37,691 bases of DNA, taken from Candidatus Heimdallarchaeota archaeon. GTDB lineage: Archaea; Asgardarchaeota; Heimdallarchaeia; Heimdallarchaeales; Heimdallarchaeaceae. Position numbers and translations under genes: made by a program. Shown here in pieces: positions 3,295 through 30,259 of this stretch. The stretch spans positions 1 through 37,691 of the forward strand of contig JAEOTE010000054.1 in assembly GCA_016839945.1 (NCBI GenBank), read 5' to 3'. Position 1 is the stretch's first letter; every line of letters begins with the position of its first letter. The notes under the pieces were generated by a model. That model worked only from the letters and a program-made list of their open reading frames with translations. It was not told the origin of the DNA and made no database searches.

Positions 3295-4344
3295 TTAGGA
3301 AATTCTTAATTGTTCTTCTGAGAAACCTTTGAACTCCAATCTGATTATTTTAGATATTTCTGTAATCATTCCTATTGCTGTTGCTACACATACAAAAACA
3401 ACTCCAATTAATATGTAAAGTCCAATGTCTGCTCCAGGGAATGAAGTTAATAGTGGATCTTTGAGTATAGCAGTGTTATATTGTAGCTGTAGGAATAGAG
3501 CTATGATTAAGCTTTGAGGAACCAAATACAATCCTAAGAATAACTGTTGAAGTCGAAGATGATCTCCAATCAAAGCTTGAGAAAATCTAATGAAACCTGA
3601 AATAACCAGTATTCCTCCAAAATATCTTATCCATGGAACAAGAAGTGTCATATCAAAGACATAGTAGGGTGTATAGTTAAAGAATGGGAAGAATATCAGT
3701 AGAAAACCAAAACTCAATCCCAAAATCCCTTCAATAAGAAAACCACCTTGACTTGAAATTACTCGTTTTGGTTTCTTTGGTTTAGCAGGTTTCTTAATTT
3801 TTGGTTCTTTTATTGCTGTAATCCTTTCTACTCTAAGATCTTTAGGTAGAAAACCATGCATAGACAATTGAACAAATACTAAGCTTATTGCTGCAAATCC
3901 TATTGCAAAGCCAGTAAACATTCCTTCAAACATTTGTGCTATAACTTGTCCAGCTTGACCTTTTCCAACAGTAAATGCCATTGTTATTAAGTTCACAAAG
4001 AAAACAAGAACACCAACTATTATCAATGATTTATAGTACCAAGGCCATAATTCTTCAGTGATATAGAATTTTGGTTTACCTCGTTTTCTGTACTCTTTAG
4101 CAATCTTACGGGGATTACCCATTTGATCAATTGCCTCTCGTACATGTTGTACTTGGGGGTCTTCACTCTGGGCAAGTTCTGATGCCTTATCCCAAATGTG
4201 ACTTTCTAATTCCTCTAGAACATCCTTTAGTTCTTCAGCATTAGTCTTTAACCAAATTGGTAGTTTTTTGGTTACTTCATCTAAGAATTGTTTTACTAAC
4301 AAGAACTCATCAATAAGTTCATCATCACTAATTCTTTTACTCAT
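3295..4344 (-). CDS. HAAS-type domain membrane protein paired with PadR
   Basis: 349 residues from ATG 4344; an ATG two codons earlier (4350) is possible, but the GAGGT site at about 4352-4356 spaces better to 4344. Residues ~5-90 form a helical domain with the pattern seen in HAAS/permease-prefix domains: two helices, then an AIDQMGNPRKIAKEY segment. These domains typically sit beside PadR regulators. Six hydrophobic segments follow, near 107-128, 140-163, 203-224, 236-254, 267-288 and 308-330, with a Lys/Pro-rich cytoplasmic loop (about 180-197). The PadR gene ends 10 bases upstream and its stop overlaps the ribosome binding site, so the two are co-transcribed. It is probably a membrane partner of the regulator; any transported or sensed substrate is unknown. 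Confidence 0.7.
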   Translation of the reverse strand: MSKRISDDELIDEFLLVKQFLDEVTKKLPIWLKTNAEELKDVLEELESHIWDKASELAQSEDPQVQHVREAIDQMGNPRKIAKEYRKRGKPKFYITEELWPWYYKSLIIVGVLVFFVNLITMAFTVGKGQAGQVIAQMFEGMFTGFAIGFAAISLVFVQLSMHGFLPKDLRVERITAIKEPKIKKPAKPKKPKRVISSQGGFLIEGILGLSFGFLLIFFPFFNYTPYYVFDMTLLVPWIRYFGGILVISGFIRFSQALIGDHLRLQQLFLGLYLVPQSLIIALFLQLQYNTAILKDPLLTSFPGADIGLYILIGVVFVCVATAIGMITEISKIIRLEFKGFSEEQLRIS

Positions 4345-4354
4345 TTTCATTACC

Positions 4355-4876
4355 TCACTTTGCTAATCCTTCTATATTGAGTCCGCATATGTTGCAGAAC
4401 TTGATATCCTCCTCTTGTGGAATTTTATTTGCACAATTGGGGCAATACAAAAATTTCTTTTCAGGAAGTTTAACTTCTACTTCCATTAGAGGGGAAATTG
4501 CTTCAAGAAGCTTGGAAAAGAATCCCATCATGTGATTGTATAATCTGATTCCTTCCTCTGTTAATTTGTAATATTTGCGAGGACGACCACCGGATTCTTT
4601 CCTTTCTGATGTCAATAATCCGTCTCTCTCCAGTTTTCTAAGAATTGGATAAAGTGTGCCTTCCTCTATTACTAATATCTTCTTTGTTTCAGCTTCTAGT
4701 TCTTTTAACAACTGATATCCATATATCCCGTCTTTAAGATGACGTTTAACAATAGATAATGCAGACAAGGTAGAAATACCACGTAGTAACTCTGATTCAA
4801 AACTCTCAACATAGGATCGGAATTGTTCTGAGCCAATCAAGGCTTCAGGACGGTATGTTTTTATGTTTCTGAACAC
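4355..4876 (-). CDS. PadR-family transcriptional regulator with C-terminal zinc ribbon
   Basis: 173 residues. The GTG start is supported by AGGTGA seven bases upstream. Residues ~31-110 are a PadR winged helix: YGYQLLKEL, then EGTLYPILRKLERDGLL, then the wing SGGRPRKYYKLTEEG. PadR proteins usually dimerise through a C-terminal helix and repress membrane-protein genes next to them. Here residues 145-164 add a zinc ribbon with C145-x2-C148 and C161-x2-C164, an uncommon extension for this family. The gene leads the HAAS membrane protein gene. A perfect inverted repeat overlapping its TATA box (4919-4939) suggests that it controls its own operon. Confidence 0.88.
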   Translation of the reverse strand: MFRNIKTYRPEALIGSEQFRSYVESFESELLRGISTLSALSIVKRHLKDGIYGYQLLKELEAETKKILVIEEGTLYPILRKLERDGLLTSERKESGGRPRKYYKLTEEGIRLYNHMMGFFSKLLEAISPLMEVEVKLPEKKFLYCPNCANKIPQEEDIKFCNICGLNIEGLAK

Positions 4877-5956: not shown

Positions 5957-6604
5957 TTAATCATCCCCTGGATAACACAATTTCCAATCTGGATGGAATG
6001 AATGAATCATTTCCATTATCTCTTTATATCCCTCTTCGGAAAAATATTTCTTTGGACAGCTTCTTTCCCCTTCTTCTATTACTTCAAAATGAATATGAGC
6101 TCCTTCATCTGCAAGTAGAAATCTTGCTATTTCTTGTCCTTGCTCAACCCAGTCCCCTTTTTTAACTTTGATCATCTGAAGTTGCATCTCTAAATCCTTT
6201 TCATTGTGTGACCACGATTCAAAACTATAATTTAAGACTACAGTTAAATTGTATCGAATATTAATGCCAACTTTGTACCTCCTTTCACCATCAAATTCTC
6301 GCCAATTTGATGCAATAATTCTGCCAGGAGCAGCAGCATTTACCCTTGAATTATTCTTGAGATAATAATGAATTCCTTGATGTTTAAATCCCCAGGGGCA
6401 ACTATTTGAATCACTATATCCTACATCAAATGCATAAACATCAGACCTATTTTCATAAATTACGTCCATATAATTAAGATGATTTGAAAGATAACGATCA
6501 CCTGGATTGAAAGTTATTCTATCCCAGAATAGATATAATATTGTTGCTCCAGAACTTACTCCTGCTATAAGTACAATGATTAGAATCACTTTGAGTTTTC
6601 CCAT
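5957..6604 (-). CDS. M23-like (LytM fold) protein, copy B, with one zinc ligand changed
   Basis: 215 residues from the ATG at 6604, chosen because MGKLKVILII aligns exactly with the start of copy A and lies just past that gene's stop. One N-terminal membrane segment (about 4-27) anchors an extracytoplasmic domain. M23-like elements are WGFKHQGIH (75-79 region), AAPGRI, the barrel-sandwich turn VKKGDWVEQGQEIA and AHIHFEV (H170, H172). The usual H-x3-D zinc pair is H75-x3-H79 here: Asp has become His. The family's second catalytic motif Y-x-H-L is not evident. Three cysteines (near 69, 183 and 210) are shared with copy A. It may bind zinc differently or be a non-enzymatic binding domain. Confidence 0.72.
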   Translation of the reverse strand: MGKLKVILIIVLIAGVSSGATILYLFWDRITFNPGDRYLSNHLNYMDVIYENRSDVYAFDVGYSDSNSCPWGFKHQGIHYYLKNNSRVNAAAPGRIIASNWREFDGERRYKVGINIRYNLTVVLNYSFESWSHNEKDLEMQLQMIKVKKGDWVEQGQEIARFLLADEGAHIHFEVIEEGERSCPKKYFSEEGYKEIMEMIHSFHPDWKLCYPGDD

Positions 6605-6606
6605 GT

Positions 6607-7260
6607 TTAACCATCTTCTGGATAGCACAATTCCCATCCTGGATTATATGAATGTATCATCTCCATTATCTCAGTATATCCCGATGTGGAGAAATATTTT
6701 TGGGGGCAGCTCCTTTCTCCTCCTTCAATAACATCAAAATGAATATGTGCCCCTCCATTAACATATAGAAATCTTGCAATTTCTTGCCCTATTTCTACCC
6801 AGTCTCCAACCTGTACCTTGAACATAGCAAGTTGTTTATCTTTGTCGACTTCTGTTGTAGTCCAGGGTTCAAAATTATATCCAATTTCTACAGTTTTATT
6901 GAATCTGATCCAAATTCTGGCATGGAATCTATTCTCTACTCCCTCTCCATAATCTTTCCATTCTATCTTTTCTACTCTTCCAGGTGTTGCAGCAAGAACT
7001 TTAGTATTGTTAAGTAGGAAGTAATCTATTCCTTGATGTTTAAATCCCCAGGGGCAACTATCAGTCTCACTATAACCTTCATTAAAAGCATAAATATCAG
7101 ACCTGTTTTCATAAATCACATCCATATAATTAAGATGATTTGAAGGATAACGATTTCCGGCATTGAAGGTCAACTTACCCCAAAAGAAATAAAGAGCAGT
7201 AGCACCAACACCAGCACCTACTATTAGTAAGATAATTAAGATTACCTTGAGCTTTCCCAT
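6607..7260 (-). CDS. M23-like (LytM fold) protein, copy A, zinc ligands intact
   Basis: 217 residues: one N-terminal membrane segment (about 4-27), then an external domain with H75-x3-D79 (KHQGID), ATPGRV, the turn VQVGDWVEIGQEIA and GAHIHFDV (H172, H174). These match the zinc site of M23 peptidases, which cut glycine-containing cross-links in bacterial walls; an archaeal host would have no murein, so the target is unclear. The family's Y-x-H-L His is not seen (the segment reads GYNFEPW). A TATA-like TTTTAAAC at about 7282-7292 fits leaderless transcription. It is first in an operon with copy B (gap 2 bases) and a hydrolase (gap 0), and copy B arose from it by tandem duplication or vice versa. 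Confidence 0.75.
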   Translation of the reverse strand: MGKLKVILIILLIVGAGVGATALYFFWGKLTFNAGNRYPSNHLNYMDVIYENRSDIYAFNEGYSETDSCPWGFKHQGIDYFLLNNTKVLAATPGRVEKIEWKDYGEGVENRFHARIWIRFNKTVEIGYNFEPWTTTEVDKDKQLAMFKVQVGDWVEIGQEIARFLYVNGGAHIHFDVIEGGERSCPQKYFSTSGYTEIMEMIHSYNPGWELCYPEDG

Positions 7261-18555: not shown

Positions 18556-19458
18556 TTAACTTGTTAATTGTAATTTCTCTTCAATTGTATTTGCAATTTT
18601 GAGAAGTGTTTCTTGTATCTCTTTTTCCTCTTTATTTCTTGATTCCATTTCAATTACGGTTTTCTTCTCAATCATTGCACTTGTAAAAATATGATTGTGA
18701 GGAATACTTGCAATTACTGGAGATTTCTCTTTACAGATTTCTTCAATCTCTTTAGTAATATTTGAGTTAATATCGGCTTTGTTAACAATAACATAGGCTC
18801 TTATTCGAAACTGCTCCAAAAGTGTTAAGACTCGCTCTAGATCATGCTTTCCAGAAATTGTTGGTTCAGTTACAACTAGTGCTAAATCAGATCCGGTAAT
18901 TGAACTAATTACTGGACAACCTATTCCTGGAGAACCATCAATTAATATGAGCTCTCTATTGAGTTCCTTAGCTACTTCATTGGCTTTCTTTCTTACTTCT
19001 GCAACCAATAATCCTGAACTTTCTTCTCCTGGTTTGAGCTTTGCATGAACCATCTTCCCAATTCTAGTTTCTGAAATGAAATAATGACCTGAAACATTTT
19101 CTTTCATCATCACTGCTGATTCAGGACAAACATGGTAACATAAGCTGCATCCTTCACACTTGAATGGTTGCACAAAGAAATCAGGATCTATTGCATCAAA
19201 TCTGCAAGAATCTCTGCATATGTTACATTTTGTACATACATTGAGATCAATTTCTGCTTTTTTCAAACCACAATATTCATGAGTAAATGATTCCCTAGGC
19301 GTAAAAATTAAATACAGATCAGCTGCATCAACATCTGCGTCAGCAAGTACTATTTTATCCTTCATAATGTGTGCTAAAGAAGCTATAATCGATGATTTAC
19401 CTGTACCTCCTTTTCCAGAAATTACAGTCAGCTGTTTTGTCTTACTCTGGCTATTCAT
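18556..19458 (-). CDS. MinD/Mrp-type P-loop ATPase with inserted ferredoxin, copy 2
   Basis: 300 residues. VISGKGGTGKSS (residues 12-23) is the deviant Walker A of the MinD/NBP35 class. Two 4Fe-4S motifs are inserted: C75, C78, C81, C85 and C101, C104, C107, C111. The ATPase then resumes with the ILIDGSPG switch region (Walker B) and VIVNKAD. This is the COG1149 architecture, linked by family and context to iron-sulfur or metal-cofactor handling. It is the last gene of a five-gene operon; its start lies one base after the stop of copy 1. Substrate and client proteins are not known. Confidence 0.88.
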   Translation of the reverse strand: MNSQSKTKQLTVISGKGGTGKSSIIASLAHIMKDKIVLADADVDAADLYLIFTPRESFTHEYCGLKKAEIDLNVCTKCNICRDSCRFDAIDPDFFVQPFKCEGCSLCYHVCPESAVMMKENVSGHYFISETRIGKMVHAKLKPGEESSGLLVAEVRKKANEVAKELNRELILIDGSPGIGCPVISSITGSDLALVVTEPTISGKHDLERVLTLLEQFRIRAYVIVNKADINSNITKEIEEICKEKSPVIASIPHNHIFTSAMIEKKTVIEMESRNKEEKEIQETLLKIANTIEEKLQLTS

Positions 19459-19459
19459 T

Positions 19460-20296
19460 TTAGACCATCTCCTTTATTTCTAGAGCAAGCTGTGTGAAGT
19501 CATCCTGCCACTTAGGAAATGCTTGTACCAAAGTTTTACCTAAAGAATATTGTCTAGCAATTTCCAAATCAAAAGGTATTTTCATTAGAATGGATATCTG
19601 TTCTTTGTCACAATATTCCTCCATTTCCTCATTTCCCATTCCATCCTTGTTTATTATTACACCAAATTTCTTGCCTAATTGTCTAAGAGCTTCTACTACA
19701 ATCTTCATATCAGAAAGACCAAATGGAGTAGGTTCGCCTATCAACAGAACAAAATCAGTATCAATTACAGTTTCGACCATTGAACATGAAGAACCAGGAG
19801 GAGAATCAAAAATAACAAAATCTCTATCTTCTTTAACAAACTCTTTCAACTTTGTTATTACTGGTGTTGCTAACTCTTCACCAACAATAAGCTCACCATA
19901 GTTAAAAAGAAGGTTCTGTTCTCTTCCTGAATAAATAGTACCTATAGGTCTATACCTTTCAGTTATGGCATTAACAGGACACACTGCAGAACAAACCCCG
20001 CAACCATGACATATTTTTTCAAAAAGAAGAACTTCTCCTGGAAGATTTGCTAGTGCATTATACTCACAACTATCACTGCACTTTCCACAGAGTGTACATG
20101 TCTCCTTATCTATAACAGGAACAGGGATCTCTGCTTTATCAATAGGTTGAACTCGATGACAAAGAAATAGAGCACTGTTAGGTTCTTCTACGTCTGCATC
20201 TAAGAGTTGAACATTTTTGAGCGATAAAGCTAAGCTCGTGGCAACCAAAGTTTTACCTGTTCCACCTTTTCCTGAAACTATAGCTATCTGAACCAT
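19460..20296 (-). CDS. MinD/Mrp-type P-loop ATPase with inserted ferredoxin, copy 1
   Basis: 278 residues from the ATG at 20296, whose MVQIAIVSGKGGTGKT is the natural N-terminal strand and Walker A; in-frame ATGs at 20326-20329 would overlap the upstream gene. Two inserted 4Fe-4S motifs are C67, C70, C73, C77 and C96, C99, C102, C106. FVIFDSPPGSSC gives Walker B and INKDG the base-specificity loop. Copy 1 and copy 2 are paralogs in tandem, a common arrangement for COG1149 proteins that may work as a heterodimer. NifX-type genes immediately upstream support a role in metal-cluster or redox-cofactor assembly. Confidence 0.88.
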   Translation of the reverse strand: MVQIAIVSGKGGTGKTLVATSLALSLKNVQLLDADVEEPNSALFLCHRVQPIDKAEIPVPVIDKETCTLCGKCSDSCEYNALANLPGEVLLFEKICHGCGVCSAVCPVNAITERYRPIGTIYSGREQNLLFNYGELIVGEELATPVITKLKEFVKEDRDFVIFDSPPGSSCSMVETVIDTDFVLLIGEPTPFGLSDMKIVVEALRQLGKKFGVIINKDGMGNEEMEEYCDKEQISILMKIPFDLEIARQYSLGKTLVQAFPKWQDDFTQLALEIKEMV

Positions 20297-20309
20297 TCCA
20301 GTCACTAAT

Positions 20310-20657
20310 CTAATGTTTACAACCATCATCTGAGGTTGCTTCTCTTATTTTCCCTTCTTTAAAATCAGATATGACTTTACTGATTTTTCCTTCTGCTCCA
20401 ACAAAGACTCTTAAACCAAGTTGAGCACAAAGGGATATAGCTCTAGCTCCTATCCCTCCACAGATAAGTCCATTACAATGCTTTTCTAGAAATTCTGCAG
20501 GAAGACCTTTTCCTCCAAAATGGTCGCTTTTATTTTCAATAACTTCTATTTCATCAGTTTCTTCATCCCAGATTGTGAAGAATGGTGATCTACCAAAATG
20601 GTAACCTAATTCCTCATCTAAACCTTTTTCCCCTTGTGAGGGTATCGCATATTTCAT
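20310..20657 (-). CDS. NifX/NifB-type dinitrogenase iron-molybdenum cofactor-binding domain protein B
   Basis: 115 residues from the ATG at 20657; the frame extends further upstream into the previous gene, but MKYAIPSQ is the family-type start. The fold markers are YHFGRSPFFTIWD, a beta segment, ENKSDHFGGKGLPAEFL and LICGGIGARAISLCAQLG. Proteins of this family bind iron-molybdenum-like clusters or act as small metal-cluster carriers. Stand-alone archaeal members usually sit, as here, with ferredoxin-MinD ATPases and DUF134 regulators rather than with nitrogenase; no nitrogenase gene is seen. The C terminus ends DDGCKH, perhaps a metal-binding tail. Confidence 0.85.
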   Translation of the reverse strand: MKYAIPSQGEKGLDEELGYHFGRSPFFTIWDEETDEIEVIENKSDHFGGKGLPAEFLEKHCNGLICGGIGARAISLCAQLGLRVFVGAEGKISKVISDFKEGKIREATSDDGCKH

Positions 20658-27818: not shown

Positions 27819-27960
27819 GGAAAGGTTAGTAAATTACTGCATGTCCATGGTAGAAGGCAATGTTCTTTTTCTCAACCTTTCTTACTTCATGATTGTAAAT
27901 CCACTCATTTTGATTTTCTGGTTCTTCTTGTTTGACTTTGTTTGTCAATTTTTTCACCTA
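27819..27960. repeat. 142-base repeat, copy 1
   Basis: Matches 29929-30070 along its full length with no insertion or deletion; I count 19 mismatches by eye (about 87% identity). The match stops just upstream of the ribosome site and a few bases after the stop of the enclosed small gene, so the repeat is in effect a duplicated gene rather than a mobile element; no terminal repeats are seen. Confidence 0.8.
27826..27948 (-). CDS. Undescribed 40-residue protein, copy 1
   Basis: TTG start with AGGTGA six bases upstream; a GTG inside that site (27957) would add three residues. The stop is TAA. The middle reads EWIYNHEVRKVEKKN and the end is FYHGHAVIY. Rich in Lys/Glu with a His-aromatic C terminus; no membrane segment or signal is seen, no cysteine. 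Coding status rests on copy 2: across 40 codons after the start there are seven synonymous and seven replacing changes, no frameshift and the same start context. The opposite-strand frame is also open but changes mainly at its first codon positions, as expected for a mirror. It ends 43 bases from the convergent methyltransferase stop. I know no family for it. Confidence 0.68.
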   Translation of the reverse strand: MTNKVKQEEPENQNEWIYNHEVRKVEKKNIAFYHGHAVIY

Positions 27961-27974
27961 TGTATACCTTAACT

Positions 27975-28021
27975 GGTCACATATTTTGAAGCTGGTGAGA
28001 AAAAGTGACCAAAAGGTGACC
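27975..28021 (-). promoter_or_regulatory. GGTCAC/GTGACC elements upstream of small gene copy 1
   Basis: GGTCAC (27975-27980) is an inverted match to GTGACC (28005-28010), and GGTGACC recurs at 28015-28021. All lie within 75 bases upstream of the small gene's start. Similar GTCAC/GTGAC symmetry precedes copy 2, where the rest of the upstream sequence is unrelated. Confidence 0.45.
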
Positions 28022-28037
28022 AAGAAACAAACTAATT

Positions 28038-28448
28038 CTAAATTTTATGTGATAATTCCCATTTCTTAAGAATTATATCTGCCATCCCTCTAATTATCTC
28101 TGCTTCATCTTCTTCAATTACATTACATGCTTGATCGTCTGGTAAGAGTTTGCATATTTCAGAAGTTAACTCACTAATTAGTTCTTTAACAATATTAGGA
28201 GATATTCCATCTCCAACTTCTTTTATTAAAACAACTGCAAAGCAATTTGTGGCTTCTAGATAAACTTCACTGCTCTTTGTAGTAAATTGTTCTGGTTCCC
28301 CTATATCTACCTCAACAAGGAAATTTCTGATTGCTACAATTAATCCAGAAAAAAGAATAGCATCTGCAAGTTTGTCTGTTCCAGATACTGGATCATAATA
28401 ATAAACTGGAACACCACCTGGAGAGATAATATAGAGAGACTTAATCAT
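28038..28448 (-). CDS. Longin-like domain protein
   Basis: 136 residues. It begins SLYIISPGGVPVYYYD, then a long amphipathic helix LADAILFSGLIVAIRNFL, strands ending VYLEATNCFAVVLIKEV and a final long helix. This beta-beta-alpha-beta3-alpha-like order, with a central GLIVAI helix, is the pattern of archaeal longin/roadblock-like small proteins, which are abundant in Asgard genomes and often partner small GTPases. No GTPase gene is in this window. Domain call is by pattern and therefore moderate; PDVSGTDKLAD-type loops are variable in the family. Confidence 0.6.
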   Translation of the reverse strand: MIKSLYIISPGGVPVYYYDPVSGTDKLADAILFSGLIVAIRNFLVEVDIGEPEQFTTKSSEVYLEATNCFAVVLIKEVGDGISPNIVKELISELTSEICKLLPDDQACNVIEEDEAEIIRGMADIILKKWELSHKI

Positions 28449-28517
28449 CAGTTCTTAAAACTAATATCATTTTTTATATCTTTTCATAGGTTTTGAAAAG
28501 AGAAGGTAATTGGATGA

Positions 28518-28745
28518 TTAATAAAACCAATTAAAAACAAAGAGAAAACAAGAAGTAAGAGCAAGAACGATTGCAGAAACTAGCATGGTTAAAGCTAATT
28601 TAAACAGATATCTTCTGTATTCCTCTTTTTTATCAGTTTTAAAATACCTACTGATTCTTATTGGTAGAATTATAACTAGTGTAATAACAGCTAAAGAAGA
28701 AAAAGTAAATGATAATATGACAATCTGACCTACTATATCAAGCAA
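28518..28745 (-). CDS. Small two-helix membrane protein
   Basis: 75 residues with a TTG start, as no ATG or GTG is available nearby; a TATA-like AATAAATATAAATG at about 28763-28776 lies 20-30 bases upstream, so it is probably leaderless. Two membrane helices (about 4-29 and 47-72) are separated by a basic/polar loop (RISRYFKTDKKEEYRR). There are no motifs linking it to a known family. The gene lies between the LVIVD propeller and the longin-like gene on the same strand. Confidence 0.5.
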   Translation of the reverse strand: MLDIVGQIVILSFTFSSLAVITLVIILPIRISRYFKTDKKEEYRRYLFKLALTMLVSAIVLALTSCFLFVFNWFY

Positions 28746-28810
28746 ATAAATCGTGTTAGATTCTCATTTATATTTATTAATTTTTACCCCATCAAGGATT
28801 TTTAATATAC

Positions 28811-29815
28811 TTATTCCCAGAGTTGAATTATTTCCAATCCATCCCCTGAAGCATCGAATATGTAAGCTAGATTATCAACAACTTGAACTGCCCTAATATA
28901 ATCCCCAGCTTCATGAAACTGACCAATCTCAACCATTTTCCCAATATTACTAATATCTATTATTTCCAACCCATCTTCATAATCTGCAACAAAAGCTATA
29001 TTATCAATAACATGAATGTAAGCTGGTTTACCTCCGTTATGAAAACGCCCAAGTAATTTTGGCTTGTGTAGATTGCTTATGTCATAGATTTCAACTCCTC
29101 TATCCATATTAGCTCCATAGAGAATGTTTCCAATAATTTGAAAGTGTCTGATTTGCCCCCAACTTCCTATTTTACCGGTCTTAACAGGATCTGCAGGATT
29201 TGATACATCAAACACATCTATACCATTTGGAGTGCTTATGAGAGCATAATTGTTGAGTATCTTAAGATATCCAAAGGAATTAGAAGTAAGATAAGATCCA
29301 ACTGATTGAGGAGAATAAGGATTGGATATATTGTAAATATATAATCCCTCATAAGCAGAAATATATGCAAGGTCATTGTATACATCAATACTCGCTGTAT
29401 CTTCAGAAACAGGAATGTTTGTAATTTTTATTATGTTGGTTAAGTTACCTATATCTAGTATCTCCATACCCTGATGGTGATCAGCAACATAGAGTAAATT
29501 GTCTATCAAACGAGTTGTATGTGCTCCTCCACCATCAAAGAAACGGTTAATTATTTTAGGATTAAGAGCATCACTAACGTTAACGAAAGAAACACCTAAT
29601 TCAGAAATTATAACTATATCATTATGAATAAGTAAACCTTCACAATAAAGTTCAGCAGGATGAACAGATGAAAGTTTTACAAGATCTAAAGTATGATTCA
29701 CTCTGTTTGATGTTTTTAATGGTTGAAAGATGATCCCCAACGTAATAGAAATAGTAAGAATAAGAAATATGGGTATTATAATTTTCCATTTCAATAATAG
29801 TTTGATTTTTTGCAT
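28811..29815 (-). CDS. LVIVD-repeat beta-propeller, membrane-anchored
   Basis: 334 residues from ATG 29815, chosen because the TATA box at 29837-29848 is about 27 bases upstream; a TTG at 29833 is in frame. A short basic head and hydrophobic anchor (about 8-28, IIIPIFLILTISITLGII) precede about seven LVIVD-type repeats, each with a strand pattern such as NLAYIFDASGDGLEIIQL or DNIAFVADYEDGLEIIDI and a Ser-Asn-Pro loop. LVIVD proteins are thought to be cell-surface proteins of unknown binding partner. The C terminus ends with the last blade. No enzyme motif. Confidence 0.8.
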   Translation of the reverse strand: MQKIKLLLKWKIIIPIFLILTISITLGIIFQPLKTSNRVNHTLDLVKLSSVHPAELYCEGLLIHNDIVIISELGVSFVNVSDALNPKIINRFFDGGGAHTTRLIDNLLYVADHHQGMEILDIGNLTNIIKITNIPVSEDTASIDVYNDLAYISAYEGLYIYNISNPYSPQSVGSYLTSNSFGYLKILNNYALISTPNGIDVFDVSNPADPVKTGKIGSWGQIRHFQIIGNILYGANMDRGVEIYDISNLHKPKLLGRFHNGGKPAYIHVIDNIAFVADYEDGLEIIDISNIGKMVEIGQFHEAGDYIRAVQVVDNLAYIFDASGDGLEIIQLWE

Positions 29816-29836
29816 GGATTTTTTCTCATTCAAATA

Positions 29837-29848
29837 CTTATATAGATT
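29837..29848 (-). promoter_or_regulatory. TATA box of the LVIVD propeller gene
   Basis: On the minus strand the sequence reads CTATATAAGT. Its centre is about 27 bases before ATG 29815 and only about 9 before the TTG at 29833, which decides the start. Confidence 0.55.
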
Positions 29849-29928
29849 ATTTTACAAATATCAATTGAACTGATTCAAAACTTTTATTTGAAGAAAGACA
29901 TCAATAACAAATTAAAGAAATTAGAAAA

Positions 29929-30070
29929 GGAAAGGCTAGTATACAACAGTATGCCCATGGTAGAAAGCGAAGTTTTTCTTTTCAACCTTTCTTACTTCAT
30001 GATTGTAAATCCATTCATTTTGATTTTCTGGTTTTTCTTGTTTGATTTTTTGTGCCAATTTTTTCACCTA
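29929..30070. repeat. 142-base repeat, copy 2
   Basis: Second copy of the 142-base match described at 27819. Beyond 30070 the sequence differs completely from copy 1 except for GTCAC-type motifs. The two copies are direct, about 2.1 kb apart, with five annotated elements between them. Confidence 0.8.
29936..30058 (-). CDS. Undescribed 40-residue protein, copy 2
   Basis: TTG start after AGGTGA (spacing six bases), TAG stop; GTG at 30067 is the alternative start, and both copies have an in-frame TAG just before it. Identical to copy 1 at 33 of 40 residues, including the whole central EWIYNHEVRKVEKKN; the end reads FYHGHTVVY. The replacements are mostly conservative (V/I, I/V, I/F, N/Q) with one E/K, and T/A at residue 2 and A/T near the end. 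It lies between the LVIVD propeller promoter region and the double GNAT gene. No known family recognised. Confidence 0.68.
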   Translation of the reverse strand: MAQKIKQEKPENQNEWIYNHEVRKVEKKNFAFYHGHTVVY

Positions 30071-30259
30071 ACCGAACATAGTTCACCCTTTAAAAATAAC
30101 TTGCTCACACATTGTGGTCACAAGTTGTGACTGAAAACAGAAAAAAATGATTGTTAAAAGTCAAAGTATGCTAATAAATCAGAAGTAAATGATGATGTTT
30201 ATTCAGAAAAAGAAGAAATAAATAGTTATGTTTTTTCATCATTAGAAAGGGTGTATTGA
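30071..30259. other. Intergenic region between small gene copy 2 and the GNAT gene
   Basis: Contains the 15-base inverted repeat at 30117-30131 and an AT-rich stretch before the GNAT start, with GGGTG at about 30248-30252 as a weak ribosome site. I see no RNA gene, further ORF or mobile element. Confidence 0.5.
30117..30131 (-). promoter_or_regulatory. GTCACAA-G-TTGTGAC inverted repeat upstream of small gene copy 2
   Basis: Perfect 7-base arms around one base, 59 bases upstream of the TTG start of copy 2. It carries the GTCAC/GTGAC core found upstream of copy 1 and could serve the small gene or the divergent GNAT gene. Confidence 0.5.

Follow-up and report, generated by a model that had tools for sequence, protein, structure and literature searches.

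A duplicated 40-residue protein gene in a Heimdallarchaeon and the conserved operators that may tie it to a chemical-stress regulon

Introduction

A 142-base segment occurs twice in a contig of Candidatus Heimdallarchaeota archaeon (JAEOTE010000054.1; the window is the whole stretch analysed, 37,691 nucleotides). This raises the question of whether the segment is a pair of protein genes and, if so, what a protein of 40 residues does for the cell. A preliminary description, made from the DNA letters, had read it as an undescribed, two-copy protein family. The principal clue to function, absent from that description, is a pair of conserved operators upstream of the two copies. It is proposed here that the 40-residue protein probably serves as a small effector in a chemical- or peptide-stress regulon of Asgard archaea, acting through partner binding.

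Two copies of a protein-coding gene

Recounting reproduced the ungapped repeat, its two minus-strand frames and the 19 base differences exactly as first described (Table 1). Of the sense codons that differ, seven are synonymous and seven change the residue; the stop is TAA in one copy and TAG in the other. Outside the block, identity drops to 21% upstream and 28% downstream. The repeat is no product of chance: a search of the whole 3.0 Mb host genome returned only two full matches to it (E 4e-25 and 2e-21). Both copies stand as monocistronic units with neighbouring genes mostly on the opposite strand, and a neighbourhood comparison found no conserved same-strand follower gene beside the 40-residue genes. 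A role as leader peptide of a downstream gene was rejected on this ground, and because the gene downstream of copy 1 lies on the opposite strand.

Table 1. Positions of the repeat, the reading frames and the promoter elements in the window
Feature	Position	Strand	Details
Repeat copies	27819-27960 and 29929-30070		142 nt, ungapped, 87% identical
Copy 1 reading frame	27826..27948	minus	40 codons, TTG start, TAA stop, MTNKVKQEEPENQNEWIYNHEVRKVEKKNIAFYHGHAVIY; dN/dS ~0.10, homologues all open
Copy 2 reading frame	29936..30058	minus	40 codons, TTG start, TAG stop, MAQKIKQEKPENQNEWIYNHEVRKVEKKNFAFYHGHTVVY
Shine–Dalgarno-like AGGTG, copy 1	27955..27959	minus	6 nt before TTG; kept in nearly all homologues
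Shine–Dalgarno-like AGGTG, copy 2	30065..30069	minus	
Type A operator	27974..28011	minus	38-bp inverted repeat TGGTCAC-N24-GTGACCA in the copy 1 promoter; window model match E 1.8e-19
Presumed TATA box, copy 1	27983..27990	minus	TTCAAAAT, inside the type A inverted repeat; assigned by position
Extra TGGTCAC half-site	28016..28022	minus	upstream, 11 bp from the next half-site (alignment)
Type B operator	30100..30131	minus	tandem palindromes TCACAACTTGTGA / TCACA..TGTGA, upstream of the TATA box
Presumed TATA box, copy 2	30089..30096	minus	TTTTTAAA; conserved in alignment, assignment inferred

The two copies differ at codon positions 1, 2 and 3 in 7, 0 and 11 places, with dN of 0.087 and dS of 0.84. 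The resulting dN/dS of ~0.10 compares with 0.04–0.3 in most other pairs of homologues; two very close pairs gave 0.47–0.60, on few changes. Matches at E ≤ 0.001 were present in 13 of 97 related genomes, none with an internal stop. Within the genus, a single-query search found full-length homologues in 14 of 21 genomes, and a profile of 23 sequences found them in all 21, every frame open. Homologues vary in length by whole codons only. The TTG start aligns with ATG in most relatives, at a nearly unchanged distance from AGGTG. Members share an open frame of 39–42 codons, a hydrophobic or aromatic C-terminal tail and a near-invariant glycine at residue 35 (numbering of the first sequence), which is conserved in at least 90% of the 23 aligned sequences. 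The coding reading of the preliminary description was thus borne out when its refuting test was run, as homologues carry neither frameshifts nor stops and the differences fall unequally over codon positions. To the extent that sequence can establish it, the repeat consists of two copies of a real protein gene under purifying selection, a conclusion that is strongly supported.

A structured RNA or mobile repeat would account for the sharp edges of the repeat and for the strong conservation of the non-coding sequence upstream. The presumed TATA box falls within this conserved upstream block, however, so most of the block would lie 5′ of the transcript. Against either form stand the low dN/dS, the open frames, the strictly in-frame length changes, the lack of an Rfam match in the window and the lack of further genomic copies. 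An RNA gene was rejected on the Rfam result and the clear codon-position bias, and a mobile repeat on the presence of only two copies in the genome; this alternative as a whole is extremely improbable.

That the family was undescribed holds against Pfam, NCBIfam and PADLOC, which gave no match, and against PDB sequences, which gave no credible one. A phage origin was considered and dropped, since tblastn against phages gave no match. The two-copy label is correct for this genome; the family itself is genus-wide and comprises several paralogue groups. One further group (L259, L260, L261 and L262; MNENKTKARMEKVEKDWKY..FYNGQMVFR) is preceded by a different conserved, palindrome-like block, GTCATCTGCTGGTGAC. 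Beyond the genus, homologues were found in a second genus of the same family and in G037, a genome from a different family; the G037 copy resembles a close relative of the genus copies. The G037 locus (L255, contig C22) carries a genus-like gene together with a copy of the operator, reflecting either transfer or contamination.

Elsewhere in the window, positions 5957-6637 and 6607-7260 (minus strand) hold tandem M23-family peptidase genes that are 72–74% identical, which is unusual in an archaeon without peptidoglycan. Adjoining paralogous MinD/ParA-type NTPases with 4Fe-4S domains occupy 18556-20329 (minus strand).

Two unrelated promoters and a history of gene conversion

The promoters of the two copies are mutually unrelated, and each is very conserved. 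One of two conserved blocks, type A or type B, lies upstream of 17 of the 17 closest homologues. In the window, type A was found at copy 1 only, with the TATA box inside it and the start codon close by. The type B model matched at copy 2 only (30056-30131, E 4.9e-23); type B consists of tandem CACAA/TTGTG palindromes 5′ of the TATA box.

In the sister species G014, the promoter counterpart of copy 1 is that of G014b (both type A), and the counterpart of copy 2 is that of G014a (both type B). Copy 2 and its sister-species counterpart are 98% identical in the promoter, over −75..−12, and 90% identical in coding sequence. The coding sequence of copy 1, by comparison, is 85% identical to copy 2, 88% to G014a and 80% to G014b, and the TTG start is common to copy 1, copy 2 and G014a. 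On the simplest account, copy 1 had its coding block replaced by that of copy 2, from the Shine–Dalgarno region to just past the stop, and the promoters were spared. Gene conversion confined to the coding block would explain the sharp edges of the repeat.

Operator patterns were tested against a reversed-pattern control. Elsewhere in the genus, the type A-derived pattern matched 33 times (control, 3) and the type B-derived pattern 13 times (control, 0); some promoter matches of looser models are chance. A search for TGGTCAC-N-GTGACCA with spacers of 20–28 yielded 56 sites against 4 control matches, all of the sites in families f1 and f6 and none in f2–f5 or f7; all of the matches listed are 38 bp long. 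With spacers of 14–34 allowed in the collected loci, 45 distinct sites (112 redundant occurrences) were recovered and the spacer was always 24. Within the 38-mer, positions 13–16 favour CTCA and positions 22–29 form a TATA-like A/T-rich stretch (A in 95% at position 27, T in 82% at position 28).

A phylum-wide scan recovered the same 38-mer, including the CTCA-like and TATA-like positions, mainly in one further family, f9; some isolated matches elsewhere have other spacings and resemble chance. Type A spans two Heimdall families and another family outside the class. The genomes are incomplete metagenome-assembled genomes and counts across related ones are non-independent, though the operator and its targets recur in three families.

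As type A straddles the TATA box, a dimeric regulator bound there would be expected to block TBP/TFB, and repression is therefore suggested. The regulators that recognise types A and B may be distinct.

Genes that share the operators

Target starts with a Shine–Dalgarno-like sequence typically lie 60–90 nt downstream of the operator motif. In f1 and f6, type A precedes members of the 40-residue family, MFS exporters, GNAT proteins, TldD/PmbA peptidases, a protein of ~110 residues, a SnoaL-like protein, a TPR-aspartyl protease and several basic peptides of 24–41 residues. Pfam and NCBIfam domains among the targets are PmbA_TldD, GNAT, MFS_1/MFS_3, Asp_protease and SnoaL_3, and the MFS proteins are nearest to the TIGR00900, EntS and Mef macrolide efflux models. 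In f9, type A again precedes genes for the ~110-residue protein, GNAT, MFS and TldD, so that the regulon is older, in its core, than the small proteins confined to the genus. Outside the genus, most lineages that bear the operator lack the 40-residue family, which is accordingly an accessory and not a core member. In f6, a conserved reading frame for a 29-residue peptide lies between the type A operator and a GNAT or aspartyl protease gene (L160, L161, L171 and L191).

Type B precedes the 40-residue family, peptides of 32–34 residues ending in KGSL, 87-residue proteins and MFS exporters. The KGSL(L) peptides (L093, L135-L147 and L227-L233) occur genus-wide behind a type B promoter. They share homology with the C-terminal end of the 87-residue proteins (hhalign probability 95%), for which three helices are predicted with low confidence. 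The 40-residue family was rejected as a relative of either (hhalign probability 0.2% against both); a glycine-containing C-terminal end is shared by all.

This set of targets could also be read as the equipment of an exported peptide, namely a signal, bacteriocin or RiPP precursor that TldD/PmbA trims, an MFS protein exports and a GNAT protein renders harmless to its producer. The operator common to the TldD, MFS and GNAT genes and to many tiny cationic peptides would fit, as would the ability of TldD/E to trim unfolded peptides and mature microcin B17 (PMC5810440). The conserved residues of the 40-residue family, however, sit in its central helix and at its C-terminus; it has neither a division into leader and core nor a signal peptide, and it lacks cysteine. 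No modification enzyme adjoins the genes, the regulon genes are scattered, and the 40-residue loci share no same-strand modification or export cluster; a PEMT-like methyltransferase is among the genes that recur beside them and is encoded on the other strand. TldD is also common in archaea without the peptides, occurring in almost all archaeal genomes (PMC5810440). An exported peptide is accordingly judged quite unlikely.

A candidate regulator

The ~110-residue protein is all-helical, and the operator precedes its own gene in three families (L183, L188, L169, L297 and L302). It was found in all 23 f1 genomes and all nine f6 genomes, in two genomes of f9 (G078 and G092) and in G076, and in none of the f2–f5 or f7 genomes, so that the lineages with the protein coincide almost exactly with those that bear the operator. 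Taken with the operator before its own gene, this distribution is what an autoregulated regulator, or else a dedicated sensor, would show. The protein is offered as a candidate regulator of the operator, as a lead from sequence comparison and not a result. It has no Pfam match, and neither it nor the 87-residue family matched any library of the Pfam, NCBIfam and PADLOC set against which they were scanned. Its PDB profile matches are mostly designed helical proteins and were read as matches of composition.

The window itself contains a PadR-type regulator gene (4355-4876), followed by a gene for a HAAS-domain protein (3295-4350), both on the minus strand and plausibly a signalling pair. The PadR gene was set aside as an autoregulated regulator, as the weak operator-model match there (E 0.053) overlaps its Shine–Dalgarno sequence and start and is probably a coincidence.

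A broader proposal, held tentatively and at somewhat below even chances, is that of an ancient and hitherto unrecognised Asgard chemical-stress regulon with a rigid, TATA-bracketing 38-bp operator, which the ~110-residue protein probably controls or co-evolves with and into which tiny proteins peculiar to single lineages, the 40-residue family among them, were recruited as regulatory effectors. If so, the ~110-residue protein would be a candidate for a new type of autoregulated transcription regulator.

Predicted structure and proposed mechanism

AlphaFold2 models the 40-residue protein with a helix at residues 10–25 and a hairpin at 30–39, a weak model of low overall confidence (mean pLDDT 66, pTM 0.22); the C-terminal ten residues score best, averaging pLDDT 81. 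It is predicted to be soluble, with a charged N-terminal helix and a C-terminal β-hairpin that turns at the near-invariant glycine (NG or HG) and has a fixed end. From this glycine and the constant length of the C-terminus, the end of the chain is suggested to be the functional contact.

The basic, helical N-terminal half would also suit a small ribosome- or nucleic-acid-associated stress protein, similar to a hibernation factor, within a translation-inhibitor regulon. WhiB7-like logic would couple translation-inhibitor stress genes of such kinds, and the exporter is similar to macrolide efflux models. The sole ribosomal sequence match is eL29, which is also the only PDB profile match of the family and is non-significant (E 0.48). 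This assignment is considered unlikely.

Sequence comparison establishes the coding genes, the conserved operators and the targets that these have in common; the repression, the class of inducer, the partner and the protein structure are proposals. In the proposed mechanism, the 40-residue genes would form two paralogous single-gene units, and an archaeal promoter with a short leader, governed by one of the two operator types, would drive each. A toxic small molecule or peptide would inactivate the regulator; this class of inducer is a guess from the types of target gene, and TldD, GNAT and MFS are broad families. The 40-residue protein would then be made along with export, modification and peptide-clearing enzymes, and would serve this response as a small regulatory subunit, with the conserved hairpin at its C-terminus as the contact for a partner.

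An antirepressor of the ArmR kind is the most specific version of this explanation that can be tested; here the 40-residue protein and its tiny companions would bind the operator's repressor through the hairpin, keeping efflux on by positive feedback. Operators common to the small genes and MFS exporters favour it and hint at joint expression with an efflux system, and the use of one type B promoter by two unrelated tiny families (the 40-residue and KGSL families) fits interchangeable regulators. There is a known parallel in ArmR, which sequesters MexR (PMC11705830). ArmR is governed by a separate repressor, NalC, however, and not by its target's operator. This specific form has a fairly small chance of being correct.

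No description of an operator-defined regulon in Asgard archaea was found in the open-access literature searched. The regulon proposed here can be read from sequence through its fixed 24-bp spacer, recurrent targets and phyletically matched candidate regulator, and so supplies DNA probes and proteins that can be put to the test, in archaea that are difficult to cultivate. Tiny proteins that normally go unannotated thereby gain a regulatory context.

Comparison with known systems

ArmR of Pseudomonas aeruginosa is a small protein that sequesters MexR and so switches a multidrug pump on (PMC11705830). The 40-residue protein resembles it as a small protein linked to control of a multidrug exporter. 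The organism, sequence and operators differ, and here one operator family spans the small gene and the exporters.

TldD/TldE of E. coli, known from microcin B17 and CcdA41, degrades unfolded short polypeptides (PMC5810440). The systems are alike in that TldD/PmbA genes lie under type A and TldD/E substrates are about the size of the proteins seen here (PMC5810440). The microcin modification genes are missing here, and the 40-residue protein is without support as a TldD substrate.

sP36 of Methanosarcina mazei, a 61-residue protein, binds AmtB1 and GlnK1 (PMC10714827). Its regulation differs and a relationship to the 40-residue protein is not apparent; it is a small archaeal protein that works through a partner, as the 40-residue protein may do.
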